The position numbers and the translations under genes are program-made. This document shows positions 486 through 10,879 of a DNA stretch of 64,000 nucleotides, in pieces; the stretch's first letter is position 1, and the number at the start of each line of letters is the position of its first letter. Below the pieces are notes generated by a model. It was not told the origin of the DNA. It did no database searches and saw only the letters and a list, made by a program, of their open reading frames with translations. This DNA comes from Lacticaseibacillus suibinensis (GTDB lineage: Bacteria > Bacillota > Bacilli > Lactobacillales > Lactobacillaceae): assembly GCF_003946175.1 (NCBI RefSeq), contig NZ_RHOK01000003.1:1-64000 (forward strand). Direction: 5' to 3'.

Positions 486-514
486 TTTACAAAAACCGGT
501 GAGATTGGTAAGCT
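486..514 (+). promoter_or_regulatory. promoter of the tRNA-like RNA
   Basis: TTTACA (486-491) and TAAGCT (509-514) are separated by 17 nt. A TG at 506-507 gives an extended -10. Initiation would fall near 520, a few bases before the 5' end of the folded RNA. The CGGTTT/AAACCG inverted repeat (483-488, 493-498) overlaps the -35 and could be an operator. Confidence 0.7.
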
Positions 515-526
515 AGACCTTGTTAT

Positions 527-614
527 GGAGAGTTGGCAGAGTGGTAATGTTGCGAGTCGCTTGCGATTTGTGGGCGCAGCAATGCGTACGGAGGTTCGAT
601 CCCTTCGCTCTCCT
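527..614 (+). ncRNA. class-II-tRNA-like RNA without an anticodon loop
   Basis: Fold seen by hand: acceptor GGAGAGT/GCTCTCC (527-533/607-613, last pair T-G); D stem GCA/TGC (536-538/551-553) with a serine-tRNA-like GAGTGGTAAT loop holding the GG pair; an anticodon-position stem AGTCG/CGATT (555-559/564-568) closed by a CTTG tetraloop; a long variable arm GCGCA/TGCGT (574-578/583-587) with a GCAA tetraloop; T stem GGAGG/CCTTC (590-594/602-606) with canonical loop TTCGATC. The elbow and acceptor features of tRNA are intact, but no 7-nt loop with T33 and an anticodon can be formed. CCA is not encoded; TTCA follows. Its own promoter and terminator flank it. It could be a tRNA-Ser pseudogene, but the compensated stems and two stable tetraloops argue for a maintained RNA. 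The peptidoglycan-bridge genes begin 150 nt downstream. Confidence 0.75.
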
Positions 615-621
615 TCAGTGC

Positions 622-653
622 GAAGCCAAGGCGGTTGCCTTGGCTTCTTTTTT
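622..653 (+). terminator. terminator of the tRNA-like RNA
   Basis: A perfect 11-bp stem GAAGCCAAGGC/GCCTTGGCTTC (622-632/637-647) with a GGTT loop is followed by six T. It begins eight bases after the folded RNA ends, so the transcript is a short, single-RNA unit of about 130 nt. Confidence 0.92.
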
Positions 654-766: not shown

Positions 767-1996
767 ATGGTAGATACAAATCGAATCGTGCCAATTTTGG
801 TTGGTACGGATGTCAATATTTACGGCATGGCCCGCTCATTCTATGAGGCTTATGGCGTTAAAAGTCACTGTATCGGTGTTTCGGCGCTGGCGATGACCAA
901 GGATTCACAAATTTGTGACGTGACACTGGTTGATCAATTCAAAACCAACGACGGCTTTGTTGCTGGTTTGAAACAAATGGCAGCGAAGTATGCCACCCCA
1001 GGCGTGAAGCCGATTTTGATCACGGCTGGGGATGAATACACGGAACTGGCTATTCGCAATCGCCAGGCGCTTAAAGACCTCTACATTATTCCTTATCCTT
1101 CTGAAACCGTTCTGGACAACGTTTACTATAAAGACCACTTCTACGCCTTGTGCGAAGAAAATGACCTTCCTTACCCTAAGACCGTGGTGGTTGATCAGAG
1201 CAACTTCGAAGCCAAGGTGGCTGAACTGCCACTGCCTTTCCCGGTTGCCATGAAGCCAGCCGATGCCGCGCAGCAAATTGCGCTGAATTTTGAAGGCCAA
1301 CGCAAGGCTTATAAGTTCAATGACAAGGCTGCCATTGTGGACATGATTAAGCGCACTTACGCTGCCGGTTACGATGGCCGTATTTTGCTGCAAGACTTCA
1401 TTCCTGGTGGCGATACGGCCATGTATACCATTAACTTCTATGCTGATGAAAACCACAAGGTGCGGCAAATGACGATGGGGCGGCAATTGCTGCAGGACCC
1501 ATCTGACTTTTTGGTCGGCAATTACGTGGCGACCTTCATTGAATACCACGAAGATATTGAGAACCGGCTGACCAAGTTCGTTGAGCACATGGGCTATTCT
1601 GGGTTTGGCAACTTTGATCTGAAGTTCGACGTGCGTGATCAGCAGTTTAAGCTGATTGAACTGAATCCGCGTCAAGGCCGCAGTGGCTTTTACACCACGG
1701 CTAGCGGGTACAACCTGATTAAGCCGATGGTTGAAGATCGCGTGTTCAACCAACCTTTCACCGCGACGGAATACGCTGATACTGACTTCTTGTGGCTTGG
1801 AGTCAACCCTGATGATGCGGTGGCAAATGTCACTGATCCGGAAATTCAAAAGCACATGCAGGCCTTAATTGATGCTGGCAAGTGGGGCAATACGCTAGAA
1901 TATGCGGAAGACAAGTCATTCATGCGTAACCACCGGATTAAGAAATATTACGCCAGCTACAAAGCGCGTTTTGCCGCCAAGAAGGAAGGAAAATAG
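767..1996 (+). CDS. ATP-grasp ligase, probable D-aspartate ligase of the peptidoglycan bridge
   Basis: This 409-residue protein starts with a short N-terminal region (VPILVGTDVNIYGMAR, residues 8-23) followed by an ATP-grasp fold. In it, PVAMKPAD (about 160) is the ATP-binding lysine strand and LIELNPRQGRSGFY (about 300) carries the metal-binding Glu/Asn. Length and N-terminus fit the D-aspartate ligase (Asl) family, which activates D-Asp with ATP and attaches it to the lysine side chain of the stem peptide in lactobacilli, lactococci and Enterococcus faecium. The enzyme is cytoplasmic. AAAGGAG lies eight bases before the ATG. The next gene follows after 3 nt and is a FemAB transferase, so the pair is an operon for branch formation. 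Substrate assignment is from memory of family sequences; another carboxylate-amine ligase is possible. Confidence 0.72.
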   Translation: MVDTNRIVPILVGTDVNIYGMARSFYEAYGVKSHCIGVSALAMTKDSQICDVTLVDQFKTNDGFVAGLKQMAAKYATPGVKPILITAGDEYTELAIRNRQALKDLYIIPYPSETVLDNVYYKDHFYALCEENDLPYPKTVVVDQSNFEAKVAELPLPFPVAMKPADAAQQIALNFEGQRKAYKFNDKAAIVDMIKRTYAAGYDGRILLQDFIPGGDTAMYTINFYADENHKVRQMTMGRQLLQDPSDFLVGNYVATFIEYHEDIENRLTKFVEHMGYSGFGNFDLKFDVRDQQFKLIELNPRQGRSGFYTTASGYNLIKPMVEDRVFNQPFTATEYADTDFLWLGVNPDDAVANVTDPEIQKHMQALIDAGKWGNTLEYAEDKSFMRNHRIKKYYASYKARFAAKKEGK

Positions 1997-1999
1997 CCG

Positions 2000-3010
2000 A
2001 TGCCAATTGTTGATTTGAATGATGCGCAGGCCGTTGCGCGCTACGAACAGTTTGTCGAGGATGCACCGTACACCTCAGTCACCCAATCGGTTGCTTGGTC
2101 CAAGGTCAAAAGTAACTGGCAGCCACTGTATGTTTATCTGGAAAAGGGGGGCCAAATCACGGCCGGGATGTCCATTTTGACTGTGACTGACAAAGCTGGC
2201 AATACCTTCGCCTACTGCTCCAAAGGCCCAGTGTGTGACCCCACTGACCTCGACACCATCGATGCCTTGGTGCAAGAAGCCTTGCCAGAGTTGAAAGCCC
2301 GCCATGCTTTTCTGCTGCGGATGGACCCAGAGCTGGATTATAGCGATGCTTTGAATGATGCGTTCAAAGCCCGCGGTTATGTGATGCGCAATCGCCAGTT
2401 CGATGGCAATCACGACACCATTCAGCCGCGCTTCAATATTGTGCTGGATATTAAAGACAAAGACATCGATGGCGTGATGGCCACGATGACCGGCAAAACT
2501 CGCACCAAGATTCGCCATGCCATGAAAAGTGGCGTGACCGTCGAAAGCGGCGATGTCGATAAACTGATGCCAGAGTTCTTTGAAGCCTACAAGACCATGA
2601 GTGACATCCACGGCATTACCTACCGCCCCTTGGCTTACTTTGACCGGATGGCCGCCGCTTTTGCCGGCAAAGGCCAGATGAAGATTTTCATCGCCCGGGT
2701 GGATGGCCAGCTGCAAGCCAGCGCCATTGCCTTTGCTTTTGGCGACAAGGTTTGGCACATGTACGGTGGTTCCATGCGCATCAAAAACAGCCTGATGATT
2801 CCTTACCTGCTGCAATATGAGATGATCAAGTGGGCCTGTGATTTGCACAAGGACCGCTACGATATGGGCGGCGTTTGGGGCCTGGATAGCAGTGATGGTT
2901 TGTATCGCTTCAAGCATCCATTCGCACCGGATACCCCAGTGCATGAATATATCGGCGAAATCGATTACGTGATGGATCAAGCCGCGTATGATGAATTCAC
3001 CAAAGAATAA
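2000..3010 (+). CDS. FemAB/MurM-family aminoacyltransferase
   Basis: The 336-residue protein shows the two GNAT-like subdomains of the Fem family. The N-terminal part has SVTQSVAWSKVK (about residue 26), and the C-terminal part has the typical MYGGSMRIKNSLMIPYLLQYEMIKWA and YDMGGVWG segments (about 255-300). Fem proteins move an amino acid from aminoacyl-tRNA to lipid-linked peptidoglycan precursors. It lies 3 nt after the ATP-grasp gene and is probably translationally coupled to it. There is no long coiled-coil insertion of the FemA/FemX type between the subdomains, so it is a compact form. Pairing of an ATP-dependent D-Asp ligase with a tRNA-dependent transferase suggests a mixed or variable cross-bridge. 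The amino acid used cannot be read from sequence. See the tRNA-like RNA at 527. Confidence 0.85.
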   Translation: MPIVDLNDAQAVARYEQFVEDAPYTSVTQSVAWSKVKSNWQPLYVYLEKGGQITAGMSILTVTDKAGNTFAYCSKGPVCDPTDLDTIDALVQEALPELKARHAFLLRMDPELDYSDALNDAFKARGYVMRNRQFDGNHDTIQPRFNIVLDIKDKDIDGVMATMTGKTRTKIRHAMKSGVTVESGDVDKLMPEFFEAYKTMSDIHGITYRPLAYFDRMAAAFAGKGQMKIFIARVDGQLQASAIAFAFGDKVWHMYGGSMRIKNSLMIPYLLQYEMIKWACDLHKDRYDMGGVWGLDSSDGLYRFKHPFAPDTPVHEYIGEIDYVMDQAAYDEFTKE

Positions 3011-3049: not shown

Positions 3050-3125
3050 GCTTGGCCAAAGCTAGGCGCCACTGGCTGACAATGCTAAAATGAGCCTTAG
3101 ACTTTAACCAATTGGGGGGATGACG

Positions 3126-3449
3126 ATGCCAACCGCAGTTACGAGCAAAACGCTGCCCAGCCAGCTTGGCCGTGGGCTCACCGTGATCGATTTGTGGGCC
3201 GAATGGTGCGCGCCGTGCCGAATTTTGAGCCCGACCTTGGCGGCGCTAGAACAAGAGCTGCCGCTGAAGGTGCTGACGCTGGATGTGGCGGGCGACAAAG
3301 CGGTGGCCGAGCAGTATCACGTGCAAAGCATTCCGACGATGCTGCTGTTTTGGGATGGTAAGCCGGTGCAAAAAATTACCGGCGCCTATCCGAAAGCCAA
3401 ACTCGCCCAATTTTTCCAAACCTTTATTGAGGATAAACAGCATGGCTGA
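3126..3449 (+). CDS. thioredoxin-like protein
   Basis: A 107-residue thioredoxin fold with WAEWCAPCR (WCxPC active site, near residue 24), the cis-proline segment QSIPTMLLF (about 69) and GAYPKAKL near the C-terminus. It lacks a signal peptide, so it is a cytoplasmic disulfide reductase. An in-frame ATG at 3120 is possible, but its ribosome site GGGGGG would be directly adjacent; the ATG at 3126 has six bases of spacing and is chosen. The 3' end overlaps the ThrE-type gene by 8 nt, so the three genes to 4691 form one operon. Coupling to an exporter is unusual and its meaning is not evident. Confidence 0.88.
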   Translation: MPTAVTSKTLPSQLGRGLTVIDLWAEWCAPCRILSPTLAALEQELPLKVLTLDVAGDKAVAEQYHVQSIPTMLLFWDGKPVQKITGAYPKAKLAQFFQTFIEDKQHG

Positions 3450-4185
3450 TAAAATTTTGAAAACCTGTCTGCTGGCGGGGCGAATCATGATCGAAGGCGG
3501 GTCGGAAATGTACCGGGTCGACGACACCATGGCCCGCATCGCCAAAAACGCTGGGGAAACGGCGCCTCAAGTCTTCACCACGCCCACCGGGTTGTTCATC
3601 GGCGTGGCCGGCCAGCCGGACGTCCAAATCGCGCCGGTCAGCCAGCGTGGCATTGATATGGAAAAAGTCGCTGGGGTGAACAATCTTTCCCGGCAATTTG
3701 CCGCCGGTGAAATCGATCTCGACGCGCTCTACACCGCGCTGGAAAAATTGGATCGCAACACGCCATTTTTCCCGGTGTGGCTGCAGATCATCGCGGCCGC
3801 ATTATGTAGTACCACTTTGATGGTGATTTTCGCCCAGAAATACGACTTCTTTGATATGCCGTTAGCTGCCGTCGTGGGTGCCATTGGCTTTGCGGTGTAT
3901 CTGCGGATGAGTAGCTTGACCAAGGTGCGGTTCATGAGTGAACTGCTTGGCGCCTTCGCCGTGGGCCTAACCGCCTGGCTAGGGGTACGCCTCGGCGTCG
4001 GCCGCAGCTTGAACAATGTGATTGTAGGCGCCGTGATGCCCTTAGTACCAGGGGTGGCAATCACCAATTCGATACGCGACATGCTCGCGGGGCACTTGCT
4101 GTCGGGCATGGCCCGCGGTATGGAGGCCATTCTCAGCGCCTGCGCGATTGGCGCAGGCGTGGCCATTATTTTCCGGTTCTTTTAA
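3442..4185 (+). CDS. threonine/serine exporter, N-terminal ThrE-type subunit
   Basis: The 247-residue protein has the ThrE (DUF1212) pattern: a soluble N-terminal domain (LAGRIMIEGGSEMYRVDDTM, TTPTGLFIG) followed by about five hydrophobic segments from residue 115 on, including MPLVPGVAITNSIRDMLAG. In Corynebacterium ThrE exports threonine and serine; in Firmicutes the protein is split in two, as here. The reading frame is open further upstream, but the ATG at 3442 is the natural start because it lies inside the thioredoxin 3' end and begins the conserved domain. The partner follows at 4233. Confidence 0.85.
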   Translation: MADKILKTCLLAGRIMIEGGSEMYRVDDTMARIAKNAGETAPQVFTTPTGLFIGVAGQPDVQIAPVSQRGIDMEKVAGVNNLSRQFAAGEIDLDALYTALEKLDRNTPFFPVWLQIIAAALCSTTLMVIFAQKYDFFDMPLAAVVGAIGFAVYLRMSSLTKVRFMSELLGAFAVGLTAWLGVRLGVGRSLNNVIVGAVMPLVPGVAITNSIRDMLAGHLLSGMARGMEAILSACAIGAGVAIIFRFF

Positions 4186-4232
4186 GCTCTTCAACGGGAG
4201 CTTTTACCTCATTGCTTAAGGAGCGTCAGCTT

Positions 4233-4691
4233 ATGCCACTACCGGTGCAAATTTTGATTCAGGTCAGCTTTAGCTACCTTTCCACCATCGCGTTTGCGAT
4301 TATTATTAACGTGCCGCATCGTGCCTTGAACCTGGCTGGGTGGGCGGGGGCAATTGGCTGGCTGGTGTATTGGAGCCTCATGCAGCTTGCCACTGGCCGC
4401 ATGCTTGCTAACCTCTTGGGCGCGTTTGCGATTGGGATTTGTGGCCTGATTTTCTCCCGCCGCAAAAAAATGCCGGTGATCATTTTCAACATTCCCGGCT
4501 TAGTACCCTTAGTCCCTGGGGCTACCGCTTATCAAGCCGTGCGGGCGCTGGTGTTAGGCAACTTCGATCAAGCCTTATCGCTTACCTTTCGGGTGGCGAT
4601 GGTGGCCGGTGCGATTGCGGTGGGGTTCATGATGGCCCAGCTGCTGGCAGAGCAAACCTACCGGCGGGCTGCAATGCCGCTGGAAAAATGA
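4233..4691 (+). CDS. threonine/serine exporter, C-terminal ThrE-type subunit
   Basis: A 152-residue, almost wholly hydrophobic protein with four or five transmembrane segments and the motif FNIPGLVPLVPGATAYQAVR (about residue 88), matching the ThrE_2 (DUF3815) half. It is expected to form a complex with the preceding protein in the cytoplasmic membrane. AAGGAG at 4218-4223 sets the ATG at 4233; an upstream in-frame TTG at 4212 has no ribosome site. The extended -10 for the next RNA overlaps its last codons. Confidence 0.85.
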   Translation: MPLPVQILIQVSFSYLSTIAFAIIINVPHRALNLAGWAGAIGWLVYWSLMQLATGRMLANLLGAFAIGICGLIFSRRKKMPVIIFNIPGLVPLVPGATAYQAVRALVLGNFDQALSLTFRVAMVAGAIAVGFMMAQLLAEQTYRRAAMPLEK

Positions 4692-5092: not shown

Positions 5093-6760
5093 ATGGGCGC
5101 TTGGTATGAGCATGCAATTATTTACCAGATCTATCCAAAATCGTTTCAAGACAGCAACGGCGATGGCGTCGGGGACCTGAACGGAATCCGGCAACGGATC
5201 CCGTACCTGCAAGCTCTCGGCATCAACACGGTGTGGCTGAACCCGATTTTCGTCTCTCCACAGGTGGATAATGGCTACGATGTGGCCAATTACTTCGCCG
5301 TGGACGAGACCATGGGTACGATGGCCGACCTGGAGGCGCTGATTGCGGCGTTGCACGCGGCGGGCATCCGCCTGATCATGGACTTCGTGCTGAACCACAC
5401 CTCGGATCAGCACCCATGGTTCCAAGACGCCATTCACGCCAAAAACAGTCTGTACCGCGACTATTACATTTTCTCCGGGCATGACGGGAAGGTGCCGAAC
5501 AACTGGGGCAGCTTCTTCGGCGGGTCAGTGTGGTCGCCGGATCCAGCGGGTACCGGGCAGTCGTATTTTCACCTGTTCGACCGGCGGATGCCGGATCTGA
5601 ACTGGGCCAATCCCGAGGTGCGGCGGGCAATGGGGGATGTTGCCATGTTCTGGCTGGGCAAGGGTATCGATGGGCTGCGGCTGGATGCCTTCATCCACAT
5701 TGCTAAGGCCGAGCTGGGGCAGGATTATCCCCTTGCCCCGGGGCAGCAGGCGCCGGTGGTGGCGGAGCCGTTTTTCGCTAACCTACCAAAGGCGCAGGAA
5801 TGGCTGCGGCCGTTCTGCGACCGCATCAAAACCGACTACCCCGACGCTTTCCTGCTTGGCGAGGCAGCATCGGCCAATGTCAACCTGGCGGCGGATTACA
5901 CCGCGCCCAGCCGGCACCTGATGGACAGTGTGATCACGTTCCGCTACTTCACTGAGGACGAAAGCAACCTGGATCCGCTGCTGCCAGCGCAGTACCAGCC
6001 GCGGCCACTGAACTTCACGGCGTTCAAGCAAACCCAGGCGGTGTGGCAGCAGACCCTCGCCGGAGTGTCGATGCCGACGCTGTACTGGGGCAACCACGAC
6101 ATGGCCCGGCTGGCGACGCGGGTGGCCAAAACCGCCACCCAAGCGCGCAGTCTGGCCATGCTGATGTACCTGCAGCGTGGCCTGCCGGTGATCTACTACG
6201 GCGAGGAGCTCGGACTGCACAACCTACAGTTCGACCACGTTGATCAGTTCGCGGATCGCACGGTGGCGCCGTTCGTAGCTGCGGTCGAGGCCACCGGGCA
6301 GTCCCGCACCGCGGCGCTGGCCATGGTGTCAGCGACGCACAAACTGCCGGCGCGGGGGCCGATGCCATGGACGGCCGGGCCGCACCAAGGCTTTTCCAGT
6401 CACCTGCCATGGTTGGTTGGACGCAGCGAGGACGCGACCAGCGTGGCCGGGCAGCAGGCCGATGAAACCAGCATGCTGCACTTCTACCAGGCGCTGATTG
6501 TACTGAAAAAGCAGCCGCTGTTTCAGGCCGGCCATTACCGGCTGTTGACCACGGCGCCCAATCTGTACGTGTACGAACGCACGCTGGCCAGCCAGCGGGC
6601 CCTGGTGGCGGTGGTCTTGGATGAGCAAGGCGCCACCTTCACCGTGCCTGAAGGCCTGACGACGGTGGCGCTGGCCGCCGGTGATTACCAACTTGAAGGT
6701 CAAACACTCACGCTTGGCGCGAATGCCGGCGTGGTGTTAAACGAAAGGGGAACTCGATAA
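5093..6760 (+). CDS. GH13_31 alpha-glucosidase, predicted alpha-1,4 type
   Basis: A 555-residue cytoplasmic glycoside hydrolase family 13 enzyme. Region I is DFVLNHTS (about residue 98), region II GLRLDAFIH with the nucleophile Asp (about 196), region III LLGEAAS with the acid/base Glu, and region IV YWGNHDMAR with the transition-state Asp. The opening YEHAIIYQIYPKSFQDSNGDG is typical of the oligo-1,6-glucosidase / alpha-glucosidase subfamily. The residue right after the nucleophile is Ala; established work on this subfamily links Val there to alpha-1,6 and Ala/Thr to alpha-1,4 preference, so it is probably a maltase-type enzyme. The ATG at 5093 has GGAAGG six bases upstream; the in-frame ATG at 5087 would be too close. 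First gene of the maltose cluster. Confidence 0.88.
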   Translation: MGAWYEHAIIYQIYPKSFQDSNGDGVGDLNGIRQRIPYLQALGINTVWLNPIFVSPQVDNGYDVANYFAVDETMGTMADLEALIAALHAAGIRLIMDFVLNHTSDQHPWFQDAIHAKNSLYRDYYIFSGHDGKVPNNWGSFFGGSVWSPDPAGTGQSYFHLFDRRMPDLNWANPEVRRAMGDVAMFWLGKGIDGLRLDAFIHIAKAELGQDYPLAPGQQAPVVAEPFFANLPKAQEWLRPFCDRIKTDYPDAFLLGEAASANVNLAADYTAPSRHLMDSVITFRYFTEDESNLDPLLPAQYQPRPLNFTAFKQTQAVWQQTLAGVSMPTLYWGNHDMARLATRVAKTATQARSLAMLMYLQRGLPVIYYGEELGLHNLQFDHVDQFADRTVAPFVAAVEATGQSRTAALAMVSATHKLPARGPMPWTAGPHQGFSSHLPWLVGRSEDATSVAGQQADETSMLHFYQALIVLKKQPLFQAGHYRLLTTAPNLYVYERTLASQRALVAVVLDEQGATFTVPEGLTTVALAAGDYQLEGQTLTLGANAGVVLNERGTR

Positions 6761-6762
6761 TC

Positions 6763-8502
6763 ATGCAACTTGCAGCATTACGGCACCGCCCAGAAAGCGA
6801 AGATTGTTTTTTGTACACTCCAGATGAGCTGCGGCTGCGGCTCCACACGGCCAAGGCCGACGTGCAGGCGGTCACCGTACTGTACGGGGATCCGTATGTC
6901 ACGGCGCCGAATGCGGCCACCGGGGAGCCGGAATTCGCCTATCAAGAGGCGGCGATGACCAAAACCGGCACCGGCCAAACCAGCGACTACTGGACCATCA
7001 GCCTGACCGCGCCGTACCACCGGCTGCAGTACCAGTTCCTGGTGACCGGCCAGGACGGCAGCACCATCCTGCTCGGCGACCGCGGTCTGCGCGCCGACAG
7101 CGCCGCCAACCGCCGGGCCAATCTGTTCCGAGTGCCGTACTTCCACGCGATTGACACGGTGCAGACGCCGGCTTGGGTCAAGGAAACCGTGTGGTACCAG
7201 ATCTTCCCAGAGCGCTTCGCTAACGGGGACCAGACGAATGACCCCAAGGGTACCAAGCCCTGGCGGCCGGCGGATCACCCGGGCCGCGAGGATTACTACG
7301 GCGGCGACCTGCAAGGGGTGCTGGATCACCTGGCCGACCTGCAGGCGCTTGGCGTGAACGGGCTGTATTTCTGCCCGGTGTTCACCGCGATGTCGAACCA
7401 CAAGTACGACACCATCGACTACTTCAACATTGACCCGGCGTTTGGCGACAAGGCTTTGTTCGCCGAACTGGTTAACCAGGCCCACCGGCGCGGCATGCGG
7501 GTGATGCTGGATGCCGTGTTCAACCACATGGGCAGCCGCAGCATGCAGTGGCAGGACGTGCTGAAGTTCGGCGCGCAGTCGCGCTTCGCCTCCTGGTTCC
7601 ACATCAACCGCTTCCCGGTGGCCCCATTCGCCGCGCCGGCGCAAGGCAGCGTGCCGCAGTACGACACGTTTGCCTTCGAGCCCCACATGCCGAAGCTCGA
7701 CACCAGCAGCCCGGCGGTGCAGGACTACCTGCTCGAGGTGGCGACGTACTGGATCAAGCAGTTCGATATCGACGCCTGGCGGCTGGATGTGGCCAACGAG
7801 GTGGACCACCACTTCTGGAAACGGTTCAACCAGGCAACCAAGGCCATCAAGCCCGATTTCTTCGTGCTGGGCGAGGTCTGGCACTCCAGCCAGCCGTGGC
7901 TTAACGGGGATGAGTTCGACGGCGTCATGAATTACGCGTTCACCGAACAGATTGAGGCCCACTTCCTGACCGGCAAGCTGAGCGCGCCCGAGCTGACCGC
8001 AGCGCTGACGGATCAGCTGATGCTGTACCGCGACCAAACCGACCAGGCGATGCTGAACATGCTGGATTCGCACGACACCGCGCGGCTGCTGACGGTGGCC
8101 GGTGGCGACGAGGACTTGGCCCTGCAGGCGCTGGCCTTCACCTTCCTGCAGACTGGGATGCCGTGCCTGTATTACGGCACGGAAATGGGCATGGCCGGTG
8201 AAAACGATCCCGACTGCCGGCGGCCGATGGACTGGGCGCAGCTGAAGGGGCCAATCTGGCAGCGCGTGCAGGCCCTGGTGACCTTCCGCCGCGCCCAGGC
8301 GGCAACGCTGGGCACCGGCACCACGGCGCTGAGCGTGACCGCGGCCGGGCTGCTCAAGGTGACCCGCACCGGTGCGCACACCGTGACGGCGTATTTTAAC
8401 ACCACCAAGCAGCCGGTGGCCCTGACCGCTAGGCCAGTGCTGGCACAGGGTTACGCCGACCAGCAGCTGGCGCCGACCGGGTTCGCCGTTATGGTTCAGT
8501 AA
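6763..8502 (+). CDS. neopullulanase / maltogenic amylase (GH13_20 type)
   Basis: This 579-residue enzyme has an N-terminal CBM34-like beta domain (residues 1-125) before the GH13 barrel, the hallmark of cyclomaltodextrinase, neopullulanase and maltogenic amylase. Catalytic regions are DAVFNHMG, WRLDVANEVDHHFW (nucleophile Asp), LGEVWHSS (acid/base Glu) and LDSHDTARL. There is no signal peptide, so it hydrolyses imported maltodextrins, cyclodextrins or short pullulan fragments in the cytoplasm, feeding the phosphorylase and glucosidases. It starts 3 nt after the preceding stop, with AAAGGGG twelve bases before the ATG. Confidence 0.88.
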   Translation: MQLAALRHRPESEDCFLYTPDELRLRLHTAKADVQAVTVLYGDPYVTAPNAATGEPEFAYQEAAMTKTGTGQTSDYWTISLTAPYHRLQYQFLVTGQDGSTILLGDRGLRADSAANRRANLFRVPYFHAIDTVQTPAWVKETVWYQIFPERFANGDQTNDPKGTKPWRPADHPGREDYYGGDLQGVLDHLADLQALGVNGLYFCPVFTAMSNHKYDTIDYFNIDPAFGDKALFAELVNQAHRRGMRVMLDAVFNHMGSRSMQWQDVLKFGAQSRFASWFHINRFPVAPFAAPAQGSVPQYDTFAFEPHMPKLDTSSPAVQDYLLEVATYWIKQFDIDAWRLDVANEVDHHFWKRFNQATKAIKPDFFVLGEVWHSSQPWLNGDEFDGVMNYAFTEQIEAHFLTGKLSAPELTAALTDQLMLYRDQTDQAMLNMLDSHDTARLLTVAGGDEDLALQALAFTFLQTGMPCLYYGTEMGMAGENDPDCRRPMDWAQLKGPIWQRVQALVTFRRAQAATLGTGTTALSVTAAGLLKVTRTGAHTVTAYFNTTKQPVALTARPVLAQGYADQQLAPTGFAVMVQ

Positions 8503-8507
8503 GATTC

Positions 8508-8521
8508 TGATAGCGGTAACA
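8508..8521 (+). promoter_or_regulatory. second cre-like operator
   Basis: TGATAGCGGTAACA fits the cre consensus at all defined positions and shares AGCGGTAACA with the site at 5015. It lies upstream of a candidate promoter rather than within it, centred about 54 nt before the presumed start, a position seen at CcpA-activated promoters. The bound regulator (CcpA or MalR) is not known. Confidence 0.78.
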
Positions 8522-8534
8522 GGCGATTCGACCT

Positions 8535-8562
8535 TTTAAAAGCGGTTTCATCTTATCATAAT
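8535..8562 (+). promoter_or_regulatory. candidate promoter for the maltose phosphorylase operon
   Basis: TTTAAA (8535-8540) and CATAAT (8557-8562) are spaced by 16 nt and lie 60 nt before the phosphorylase start. An AGGTG...CACCT hairpin (about 8581-8600) follows in the leader. The hexamers are only fair matches. Confidence 0.5.
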
Positions 8563-8620
8563 CAGCAGTGTAGAAAAGTTCAGGTGGCGCAATTCACCTC
8601 CCGAAAGTGAAGGATGCAAG

Positions 8621-10879
8621 ATGAAACGGATATTTGAAATCGACCCGTGGCTGGTACAAAGCCACCAATTAAACCCCAACGAGAAACGCCTGCAGGAAAG
8701 CATGACCGCCATTGGCAACGGCTACATGGGCCTGCGCGGTAACTTCGAAGAAGGTTACAGCGGTGATCACCTGCAAGGCACGTATCTCGGTGGCGTCTGG
8801 TTCCCAGATAAAACTGTCGTCGGCTGGTGGAAAAACGGCTACCCGGATTACTTCGGCAAGGCGATCAACGCGCCGAGCTTCATCGGCATGGCGCTCACCG
8901 TGAACGGTGAGCGCGTCGATCTGGCCACCAGCGCCTACCGCGATTTCACCCTCACGCTTGACCTGCACCAGGGCCTGCTGACCCGCAGCTTCGTATTTGA
9001 GGGCAAAAAGGCCACGGTGCGCTTCACCTTCAAACGCTTCCTCAGCAACGTGATTAAGGAGGCGGCGCTGGTGCAGCTCACTGCCGAAAGCTTGGCCGGA
9101 CCGGCCGAGCTGACGGTGGCCGCCCAGCTCGACGGCAACGTCACGAACGAGGACAGCAACTACGACGAGTGCTTCTGGGCGCCGCAGGGGGAGGACGCCG
9201 CGGCTGGCACGATCCAGCTGCAGACCAAGCCCAACCCGTTCGGAGTCCCGCAGTTCACGGTGTTGCTCAAGCAAAGCCTGCGCCAAGGCGCAACCATTTT
9301 GCCCGGCACCGTGACTACCAGCACCGGCCAGCTGACCAGCACGGTCACGCTGGCGCTGGCGCCGAACGTGCCGGTCCAGCTGGAAAAGGACGTCATCGTG
9401 GTCACGAGCCGCGACGTCGCCCCTGAGGCCCAGACCGAAGCGGCCTCAGGGCTGATGACGCAGCTGCAGGGGCAGAGCTTCGCGGCCCACCTGGCGGCGC
9501 ACACCGCCTTGTGGACCAAGCGCTGGGCCCAAAGCGACGTTGTGATTGAAGGCGACGACGCGGCCCAGCAAGGCATCCGCTTCAACCTCGCCCAGCTGTT
9601 CATGACCTACTACGGCGACGATAAGCGGCTCAACGTGGGGCCGAAGGGTTTCACCGGTGAGAAGTACGGCGGCGCGACCTACTGGGATACCGAGGCCTAC
9701 GTGGTGCCGATGTACGTCGCCGCCACCCCGCCGGCCGTGACCCGGGCGCTGCTGCAGTACCGGCACGACCAGCTGCCCGGCGCCTACCACAACGCCCAGC
9801 AGCAGGGGCTCAAAGGCGCCTTGTTCCCGATGGTGACCTTCAATGGCATCGAGTGCCACAATGAATGGGAAATCACCTTCGAGGAACTGCACCGCAACGC
9901 GGCGGTCGCTTTTGCGATTTACCAGTACACGGCCTACACCGGCGATGAAAGCTACGTCAACCACGACGGCATGGAGGTGCTGGTGGGCATCAGCCGCTTC
10001 TGGGCGGACCGGGTCCACTTCTCCAAGCGCGCCGGCAAGTACATGATCCACGGGGTCACCGGGCCGAACGAGTACGAAAACAACGTCAACAACAACTGGT
10101 ACACCAACACAATGGCCGCGTGGTGCCTGGAGTACACCCTGGCCCGGCTGCCCAAGGCCGATGCCGCCATTCAGGCCAGGCTGGCCGTGAGCGCCGCCGA
10201 GCAGCAACAATGGCAGGACATTATCGACCGCATGTACTATCCGGAGGACAAGAAGCTGGGCATTTTCGTCCAGCACGACACCTTCCTGGATAAGGACCTG
10301 CGGCCGGCAAGCTCGATTCCAGCAGATCAGCGGCCAATCAACCAGCACTGGTCCTGGGACCGCATCCTGCGGTCACCGTTCATCAAGCAGGCGGATGTGC
10401 TTCAGGGCGTGTACTTCCTGAACGACCGCTTCACCCGCGAGCAGAAGGAACGCAATTTTGACTTCTACGAGCCGCTGACGGTGCACGAAAGCTCGCTGAG
10501 CGCCTCGATTCATGCGGTGCTGGCCGCCGAACTTGGCAAGCAGGACAAGGCCGTTGAGCTGTACCAGCGCACGGCCCGCCTGGACCTGGATAACTACAAC
10601 AACGACACGGCAGACGGCCTGCACATCACCTCGATGACCGGCGGCTGGCTGGCCATTGTGCAGGGCTTTGCCGGCATGCGCTACGACCATGATCAACTGC
10701 GGTTCGCTCCGTTCCTGCCGAAGCAGTGGCAGGGTTACCAGTTCCGCATCAACTACCGCGGCCGGGTGATTCAAGTCGCGGTTGGGAAAGAAGTGGCGGT
10801 GACCCTGCTAGCCGGCCCGCCGCTGACCGTGATGGTTGCCGGCCGGCCGCAGCATTTGGAGGTGAGCGCGCATGCTTAA
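8621..10879 (+). CDS. mapA: maltose phosphorylase (GH65)
   Basis: At 752 residues this matches the family length. GH65 maltose phosphorylase splits maltose with phosphate to glucose and beta-glucose 1-phosphate in the cytoplasm. It shows the N-terminal [14 protein letters not shown] segment, the central [10 protein letters not shown] and [15 protein letters not shown] motifs, and [20 protein letters not shown], which carries the general-acid Glu in the GP(N/D)EY motif (about residue 485). The C-terminal beta sandwich is complete. AAGGATGCAAG precedes the ATG. The last 8 nt overlap the beta-phosphoglucomutase gene, which uses its product. Confidence 0.95.

Follow-up and report, generated by a model that had tools for sequence, protein, structure and literature searches.

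We investigated a small RNA gene near the start of the first 64,000 nucleotides of contig NZ_RHOK01000003.1 of Lacticaseibacillus suibinensis (this whole stretch is called the window below), whose unusual shape had been noted in an earlier reading of the letters (the original prediction). The gene encodes a class-II cloverleaf resembling tRNA-Ser in which the anticodon arm is swapped for an 8-bp hairpin capped by CUUG, and it adjoins genes for an ATP-grasp ligase and a FemX-type transferase. Sequence comparison leads us to propose that the RNA is probably a non-decoding donor of serine, dedicated to building the cross-bridges of peptidoglycan.

A tRNA-Ser-like RNA with a tetraloop hairpin in place of the anticodon arm

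ARAGORN, which was applied to the window and to the retrieved loci, called a tRNA at positions 527-614 of the forward strand whose anticodon, 'cttg', could not be assigned. As in an elongator tRNA-Ser, the cloverleaf is of class II with a 7-bp acceptor stem and a 5-bp T stem, and this held in 7 of 7 distinct sequences; in place of a 7-nt loop with a serine anticodon there is a covarying 8-bp stem with CUUG. The gene ends in U73 at position 614, and CCA is not encoded. A whole-window Rfam scan did not report the tRNA model. With laxer filters the same model gave the window RNA 30.3 bits (threshold 29), and since the alignment skips the anticodon region it contains no normal 7-nt loop.

The positions given by the original prediction were right, and the CUUG tetraloop that it had described in place of the anticodon loop was confirmed by the ARAGORN call, by covariation and by the region skipped in the Rfam alignment. 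Its GNRA-capped variable arm and TTCGATC loop are as described, and the gene's own promoter and terminator, as sequence signals, have counterparts in 8 of 8 genomes. The stem at the anticodon position is present, but has 8 bp (552-559/564-571) where 5 bp had been claimed. The 3-bp D stem exists too; it is not all Watson-Crick, one pair being G-U in the window (G-C in three relatives). The earlier interpretation as a whole was partly supported: the ATP-grasp and FemX neighbours and the RNAs of the same design in another genus had been missed.

The minimum-energy fold of the isolated window RNA is the cloverleaf, at -31.1 kcal/mol, and the 8-bp CUUG hairpin appeared in three of the four RNAs folded (window and relatives), the exception being the Companilactobacillus RNA, whose best fold is a different one. 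The fold energies were not clearly lower than those of shuffled sequences, with z values of -0.92 for the window and -1.28 to -2.28 for the other three. They are therefore uninformative, and the structural case rests on comparison among copies.

Conservation and covariation

In a BLAST sample of 301 genomes of the family, near-full-length matches were found in five (G000, which is the window genome, G277, G198, G179 and G069); the remaining listed matches covered about 25-30 nt of the 5' end alone, the part common to tRNA-Ser. Within the genus, R1, a covariance model of the RNA, gave matches of 103-113 bits in seven of the 30 genomes searched; the next one lay at 61.1 bits. Over 395 genomes of the order its best match outside the window genome, among the matches listed, was 64.3 bits; this search and the family search described below, like all covariance searches over more than 40 genomes, ran with stricter filters. 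The CUUG RNA is thus known from eight genomes in all, seven of Lacticaseibacillus including the window genome and one of Companilactobacillus (G069). Species carrying it besides L. suibinensis are L. suilingensis (ligase 99% identical), L. hegangensis, L. kribbianus and Companilactobacillus sp. RD055328. Near relatives are counted as separate genomes, whereas G313, G179, G277, G263 and G069 are the same genomes as public records and are counted once. The plasmid and phage collections held no match to the RNA at E 1e-5. A phage or plasmid origin was dropped, the lone match in viral_contigs being an ordinary tRNA-Ser(TGA).

Across the seven distinct sequences, 194 of 194 cells pair. Both-sided changes occur in five pairs, all within the anticodon-position arm (5 of its 8 pairs), and the three innermost pairs of that arm are among them (columns 32-34 with 39-41). 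Only 4 of 500 shuffles reached five both-sided pairs and none of 500 reached the covariation score, in a test that favours the structure, which had been derived from these same, related sequences. The CUUG loop and the G2-C71 pair are invariant, and all seven sequences have A3-U70, GG and TTCRA. The acceptor stem, D arm and T arm are the best-kept parts of the RNA.

Among distant copies (six compared), the gene is 79-90% identical, against 37-57% in the 100-base flanks, where shuffled means were 37-51%. In the close relatives G198, G179 and G303 the corresponding values are 98-99% for the gene and 67-74% for the flanks. The layout of -35 box, 17-nt spacer and -10 box is found in all eight copies, though the upstream DNA of the distant copies is otherwise near the shuffled level, and a hairpin with a T run lies 3' of 8 of 8 copies. 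The original prediction had named homologues in related genomes, compensatory stem changes and a covariance-model alignment as checks. With seven further genomes, five pairs changed on both sides and no normal 7-nt anticodon loop under the Rfam tRNA model, each of these supports a class-II, tRNA-Ser-like, non-decoding RNA.

Likeness to tRNA-Ser(CGA)

Positions 525-549 of the window, which comprise 2 nt of upstream DNA and the gene's first 23 nt, are identical to the tRNA-Ser(CGA) locus of the same genome, and the two RNAs have the acceptor stem (pair 7-66 excepted) and U73 in common. The ordinary tRNA-Ser genes of the window genome read CGA, GCT, TGA and GGA. For seryl-tRNA synthetase (SerRS) we found one gene over the cut-off and two weak matches below it; a duplicate SerRS was dropped as a candidate, since a single gene passes. 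From the likeness of acceptor stem, D arm and U73 to tRNA-Ser(CGA), charging by SerRS is plausible.

The same genome holds one other odd tRNA-like gene, of 73 nt, for which ARAGORN gives the anticodon 'tc' (locus L244, 5967-6039, on contig C19 of G000). Its neighbours look phage-like, judged by eye from the starts of their open reading frames (ORFs).

Linkage to ATP-grasp ligase and FemX genes

The gene at 767-1996 is of ATP-grasp type by both fold and profile (Table 1). Its structural model (pLDDT, the predicted local distance difference test, 91.6) matches ATP-grasp folds in the Protein Data Bank. Stand-alone Asl-like (D-Asp ligase-like) proteins are distant relatives, with at most about 40% identity. 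The product of the gene at 2000-3010 matches FemX structures with a best E of 9.5e-94; against the FemX alanyltransferase equivalog NCBIfam NF047883 it reaches 389.8 bits, below the cut-off of 500. The adjacency of these genes suggests a function of the RNA in the cell wall.

Ligase and FemX genes adjoin the CUUG RNA in 8 of 8 genomes, in differing neighbourhoods and in two orientations, the RNA being divergent from the ligase in Companilactobacillus. The surroundings are rRNA in the window and other genes in L. kribbianus and Companilactobacillus, so membership of an rRNA operon was dropped as a general feature of the RNA. Eight of the 30 genomes of the genus have FemX, and the same eight have a ligase orthologue (at least 71% identity). 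The RNA occurs in seven of these eight and in none of the 22 other genomes (Fisher p 3.9e-6, uncorrected for relatedness).

Trees were built from chosen rows, a subset of the retrieved loci. Among 28 chosen ligases, those of Lactobacillaceae that are paired with FemX (8 rows, support 91/81) form one group and the stand-alone ligases of Lactobacillaceae and Enterococcus (11 rows, support 100/99) another, and the paired ligases of Bhargavaea, a Clostridia metagenome-assembled genome (MAG) and Sporosarcina fall elsewhere. For L. daqingensis (G263), the FemX clusters with the second of the two G303 copies (support 100/100), apart from the RNA-linked copies, and the ligase clusters with its L. kribbianus counterpart (support 100/100). 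A second Asl-like ATP-grasp gene (E 1e-40 or better) is present in G198, G179, G277, G308 and G263, and none was found in G000 or G313, whose cross-bridge may depend on the RNA-linked ligase alone.

Genome G303 (locus L226, G303:C29:15000-27095) carries tandem femX genes, at 5776-7925 and 7932-9157, after the RNA and ligase, the second being of the L. daqingensis type. Its ligase matches as two pieces in different frames, which may reflect a sequencing error; completeness of the assembly is 84%.

On the 3' side of femX, window positions 3120-4691 hold a thioredoxin-like ORF and two ORFs that we take to resemble a split threonine/serine exporter. Similar ORFs follow femX in close relatives and not in L. 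kribbianus or Companilactobacillus, and they were dropped as parts of the system because they are not conserved with the RNA.

Table 1. Positions of the RNA gene, its parts and signals, and the two adjoining protein genes in the window.
Feature	Position	Strand	Details
Promoter-like site	486-514	+	-35 TTTACA 486-491, 17-nt spacer, -10 TAAGCT 509-514
Anticodon-less class-II tRNA-Ser-like RNA	527-614	+	ARAGORN tRNA-???; model R1 106.3 bits
Acceptor stem	527-533/607-613	+	G1-C72, G2-C71, A3-U70; paired in 7/7 distinct sequences
Hairpin at anticodon-arm position	552-571	+	stem 552-559/564-571 (8 bp), CUUG loop 560-563
Variable arm	574-578/583-587	+	GCAA loop; GNRA in 7/7 distinct sequences
T arm	590-594/602-606 (span 590-606)	+	loop TTCGATC
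Intrinsic terminator	622-653	+	11-bp hairpin, then T6
ATP-grasp ligase, FemX-paired	767-1996	+	Pfam CPSase_L_D2 23.6 bits, cut-off 19.8
FemX-type transferase (predicted aminoacyl-tRNA to peptidoglycan precursor)	2000-3010	+	Pfam FemAB PF02388, 161.6 bits, cut-off 24

Further anticodon-less RNAs beside Fem genes

A wider R1 search covered 20 FemX-bearing genomes, namely G263 and 19 whose FemX is more distant, and gave no match above 58.2 bits in them. Most, not all, of its class-II matches were retrieved (30 loci from the search itself and others). In the genus g24, four genomes (G061, G092, G118 and G142) carry a tandem pair of class-II genes flagged by ARAGORN as having no anticodon, with a 6-bp stem and a UUCG loop at the anticodon position. 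G061, G118 and G142 also hold one copy each with a UUUU loop on a 7-bp stem; the G165 copy of this type reads UUCG in its loop by sequence, and its best fold is not a cloverleaf. In G019 there is a class-II tRNA-Ser-like copy (L267 1504-1595, G019:C2) with a stem of 7-8 bp at the anticodon position and a UUAU loop, without a match in four congeners. The g24 and G019 RNAs share their TTACCCAAG-type D arm with the tRNA-Ser(TGA) of the window genome rather than with its tRNA-Ser(CGA), a likeness that points to a separate origin of these RNAs.

A covariance model of the g24 RNAs, R2, scored 97.8-115.1 bits in 5 of 397 genomes of the family, all of them g24, the next among the matches listed being 75.0 bits. 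This match and 12 further next-best ones were examined and proved to be ordinary tRNA-Ser. In alignment A8 of the g24 RNAs (6 distinct sequences, 25 pairs) 149 of 150 cells are paired (99.3%), with three both-sided pairs. These counts are weak, as there is little divergence, only one of the three both-sided pairs belongs to the arm at the anticodon position, and in this alignment the UUUU row misfits the inner pairs. The mixed tetraloop alignments A6 and A7 were left out of the counts because arm lengths differ between tetraloop types.

In all four genomes, the UUCG pair is followed directly by a FemAB gene on the same strand. The nearest solved structure to the product of that gene is 1lrz ('factor essential for expression of methicillin resistance'; E 1.4e-43). 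The UUUU copy adjoins another FemAB coding sequence, partial in G061, in all three genomes with flanks. Taking all anticodon-less loci together, coding sequence for a Fem protein or ligase lies within 1.5 kb of 15 of 17, versus 0 of 132 ordinary tRNA-Ser loci; the latter are those retrieved by tRNA matches, some cut by contig ends.

One ordinary tRNA-Ser(TGA) gene outside the control set lies 131 nt after femX in G220 (L350 5732-6968, G220:C9), an arrangement that is perhaps an early stage of such linkage.

Discussion

Our statements on published systems rest on the accessible portions of the papers cited. FemX enzymes use aminoacyl-tRNA as the source of an amino acid that they attach to the peptidoglycan precursor (PMC4052509), and in lactic acid bacteria D-Asp is built into the bridge by AslA, an enzyme of the ATP-grasp family (PMC4155827). 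In the mechanism that we propose, a copy of tRNA-Ser(CGA) would have lost its anticodon when the 7-nt loop gave way to the 8-bp hairpin closed by CUUG. SerRS, acting through the variable arm and the acceptor end, would still charge the RNA. The seryl-RNA, having no anticodon, would be unusable at codons and hence kept for FemX, which would attach the seryl residue to lysine in the peptidoglycan precursor, and the ATP-grasp ligase would then add a further, probably D-, amino acid. The FemX of Weissella viridescens depends on the G2-C71 pair, and that it excludes serine has been ascribed to active-site sterics, not to the sequence of tRNA-Ser (PMC4052509).

Several observations weigh against a dedicated seryl donor. 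The W. viridescens enzyme turns over Ser-tRNA 17-fold less than Ala-tRNA (PMC4052509). SerRS is described as reading G73 (PMC7609411), and the RNA carries U73. However, 47 of the 49 distinct ordinary tRNA-Ser(CGA) sequences in the retrieved loci end in t (by ARAGORN bounds), so that U73 is no argument against SerRS here. L. daqingensis (L035) has no such RNA, though it has ligase and FemX; loss of the RNA may have gone along with a change of FemX in this species, and the grouping of its FemX softens the exception without removing it. Two of the 17 anticodon-less loci have no Fem gene nearby, G019 being a true miss and G165 lying at a contig edge. Pairs of ligase and FemX genes without the RNA occur in Bhargavaea, the Clostridia MAG, Sporosarcina sp. 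P32b and three g4 genomes. Among 20 further FemX regions (11.6-18 kb) none held an anticodon-less tRNA and one held ordinary tRNAs. In total, 10 of 74 FemX-positive genomes are known to have such an RNA, most of the 74 not having been searched closely.

We weighed four other readings of the RNA. It could be a regulatory RNA or decoy that mimics a tRNA, stays uncharged and regulates wall synthesis, either by binding a factor such as FemX or SerRS or in the manner of tRNAOther, the pseudo-tRNA of Bacillus cereus. The promoter- and terminator-like signals of the gene would suit this reading, and there is a known non-decoding tRNA whose deletion alters the cell wall and antibiotic resistance (PMC3399842). 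That RNA, tRNAOther, has a Trp anticodon and sits within larger RNAs (PMC3399842), unlike the window RNA. The best preservation in the acceptor stem, D and T arms, as expected of a charged RNA, and the repeated linkage to transferase genes of a family that uses aminoacyl-tRNA also speak against it, and we regard this reading as unlikely.

A dedicated donor charged with an amino acid other than serine, for instance alanine by mischarging, or leucine, seems to us more doubtful still. W. viridescens FemX prefers alanine (PMC4052509), and class II also takes in Leu and Tyr tRNAs (PMC7609411). The body of the RNA is nevertheless close to tRNA-Ser(CGA). Moreover, the identity element of alanyl-tRNA synthetase (AlaRS) is the G3-U70 pair, which is absent from the RNA, A3-U70 standing in its place.

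The ARAGORN assignment of cttg at position 34 would fit a quadruplet-decoding or frameshift-suppressor tRNA with an 8-nt loop and the anticodon CUUG. If this were so, then the positions at and inside such a loop should not behave as pairs. The fact that each of the three innermost pairs shows a both-sided change in at least one sequence led us to reject this reading as highly improbable; in addition, ARAGORN reads tgta in Companilactobacillus despite the invariant CUUG, and the second set of RNAs has UUCG and UUUU loops. A decaying tRNA-Ser pseudogene would explain why the RNA is unlike ordinary tRNA-Ser and missing from most genomes searched, and was rejected as scarcely credible given the fully paired cells with compensatory changes, the kept GNRA and CUUG loops, the gene-versus-flank identity, and a promoter and terminator layout maintained while flanks are near random between distant copies.

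We return to the dedicated seryl donor. The nearest known kind is the non-proteinogenic cell-wall tRNA-Gly of staphylococci, isoacceptors that are thought to be reserved for Fem transferases and peptidoglycan bridges and that evade elongation factor Tu (EF-Tu) through altered T-arm positions and G18-G19 (PMC4052509, PMC9976931). The window RNA differs in its tRNA-Ser-like body, its removed anticodon and the location of its gene beside the transferase. The replacement of G18-G19 by which the staphylococcal type evades EF-Tu was not found, GG and TTCRA being kept in all seven sequences. We propose that the RNA works like a dedicated wall tRNA of a design other than the staphylococcal one. The window FemX is related to that of W. 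viridescens, and the G2-C71 pair is common to both systems; in that species alanine is preferred, and the accessible text describes no dedicated tRNA (PMC4052509).

tRNAOther of Bacillus cereus is tRNA-like and stands outside translation, its deletion alters wall morphology, and it is charged poorly in vitro (PMC3399842). No Fem linkage is stated for it in the portions available (PMC3399842), whereas the window RNA adjoins FemX, and its Trp anticodon has no counterpart in the window RNA. The tRNA-like domain of transfer-messenger RNA (tmRNA) is aminoacylated and has no anticodon (PMC3985003, PMC2481249). The window RNA differs from it as a full cloverleaf with a D stem and a long variable arm, encoded by a separate short gene. 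The alanine determinant of tmRNA is G3-U70; neither this pair nor an mRNA-like part was found here, A3-U70 being present in 7 of 7 sequences and ARAGORN reporting no tmRNA in the window. Allo-tRNA and tRNA-Sec, the remaining relatives in shape, keep their anticodons. They are class-II tRNAs of unusual form that SerRS charges or that belong to the serine type, and tRNA-Sec has a 13-bp acceptor domain (PMC7609411), in contrast to 7 + 5 bp in the window RNA. The accessible portions of that review of non-canonical tRNAs describe no anticodon-less tRNA (PMC7609411). The accessible literature on anticodon-less or non-decoding tRNAs, and on tRNA together with Fem or the wall, contained no recognisable report of such an RNA.

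With both sets of RNAs considered, the balance favours the view that Lactobacillaceae have at least twice turned a tRNA-Ser copy into an anticodon-less donor (CUUG in one case, UUCG/UUUU in the other) encoded beside its own Fem transferase. These donors would form a class of wall tRNAs that separates wall synthesis from translation by removal of the anticodon. If this is true, then a non-decoding RNA encoded beside its enzyme would make the idea directly testable in one system, and the RNA would be a natural orthogonal aminoacyl donor. It also suggests that tRNA genes with unassignable anticodons, which are easily written off as pseudogenes, can be a functional class.
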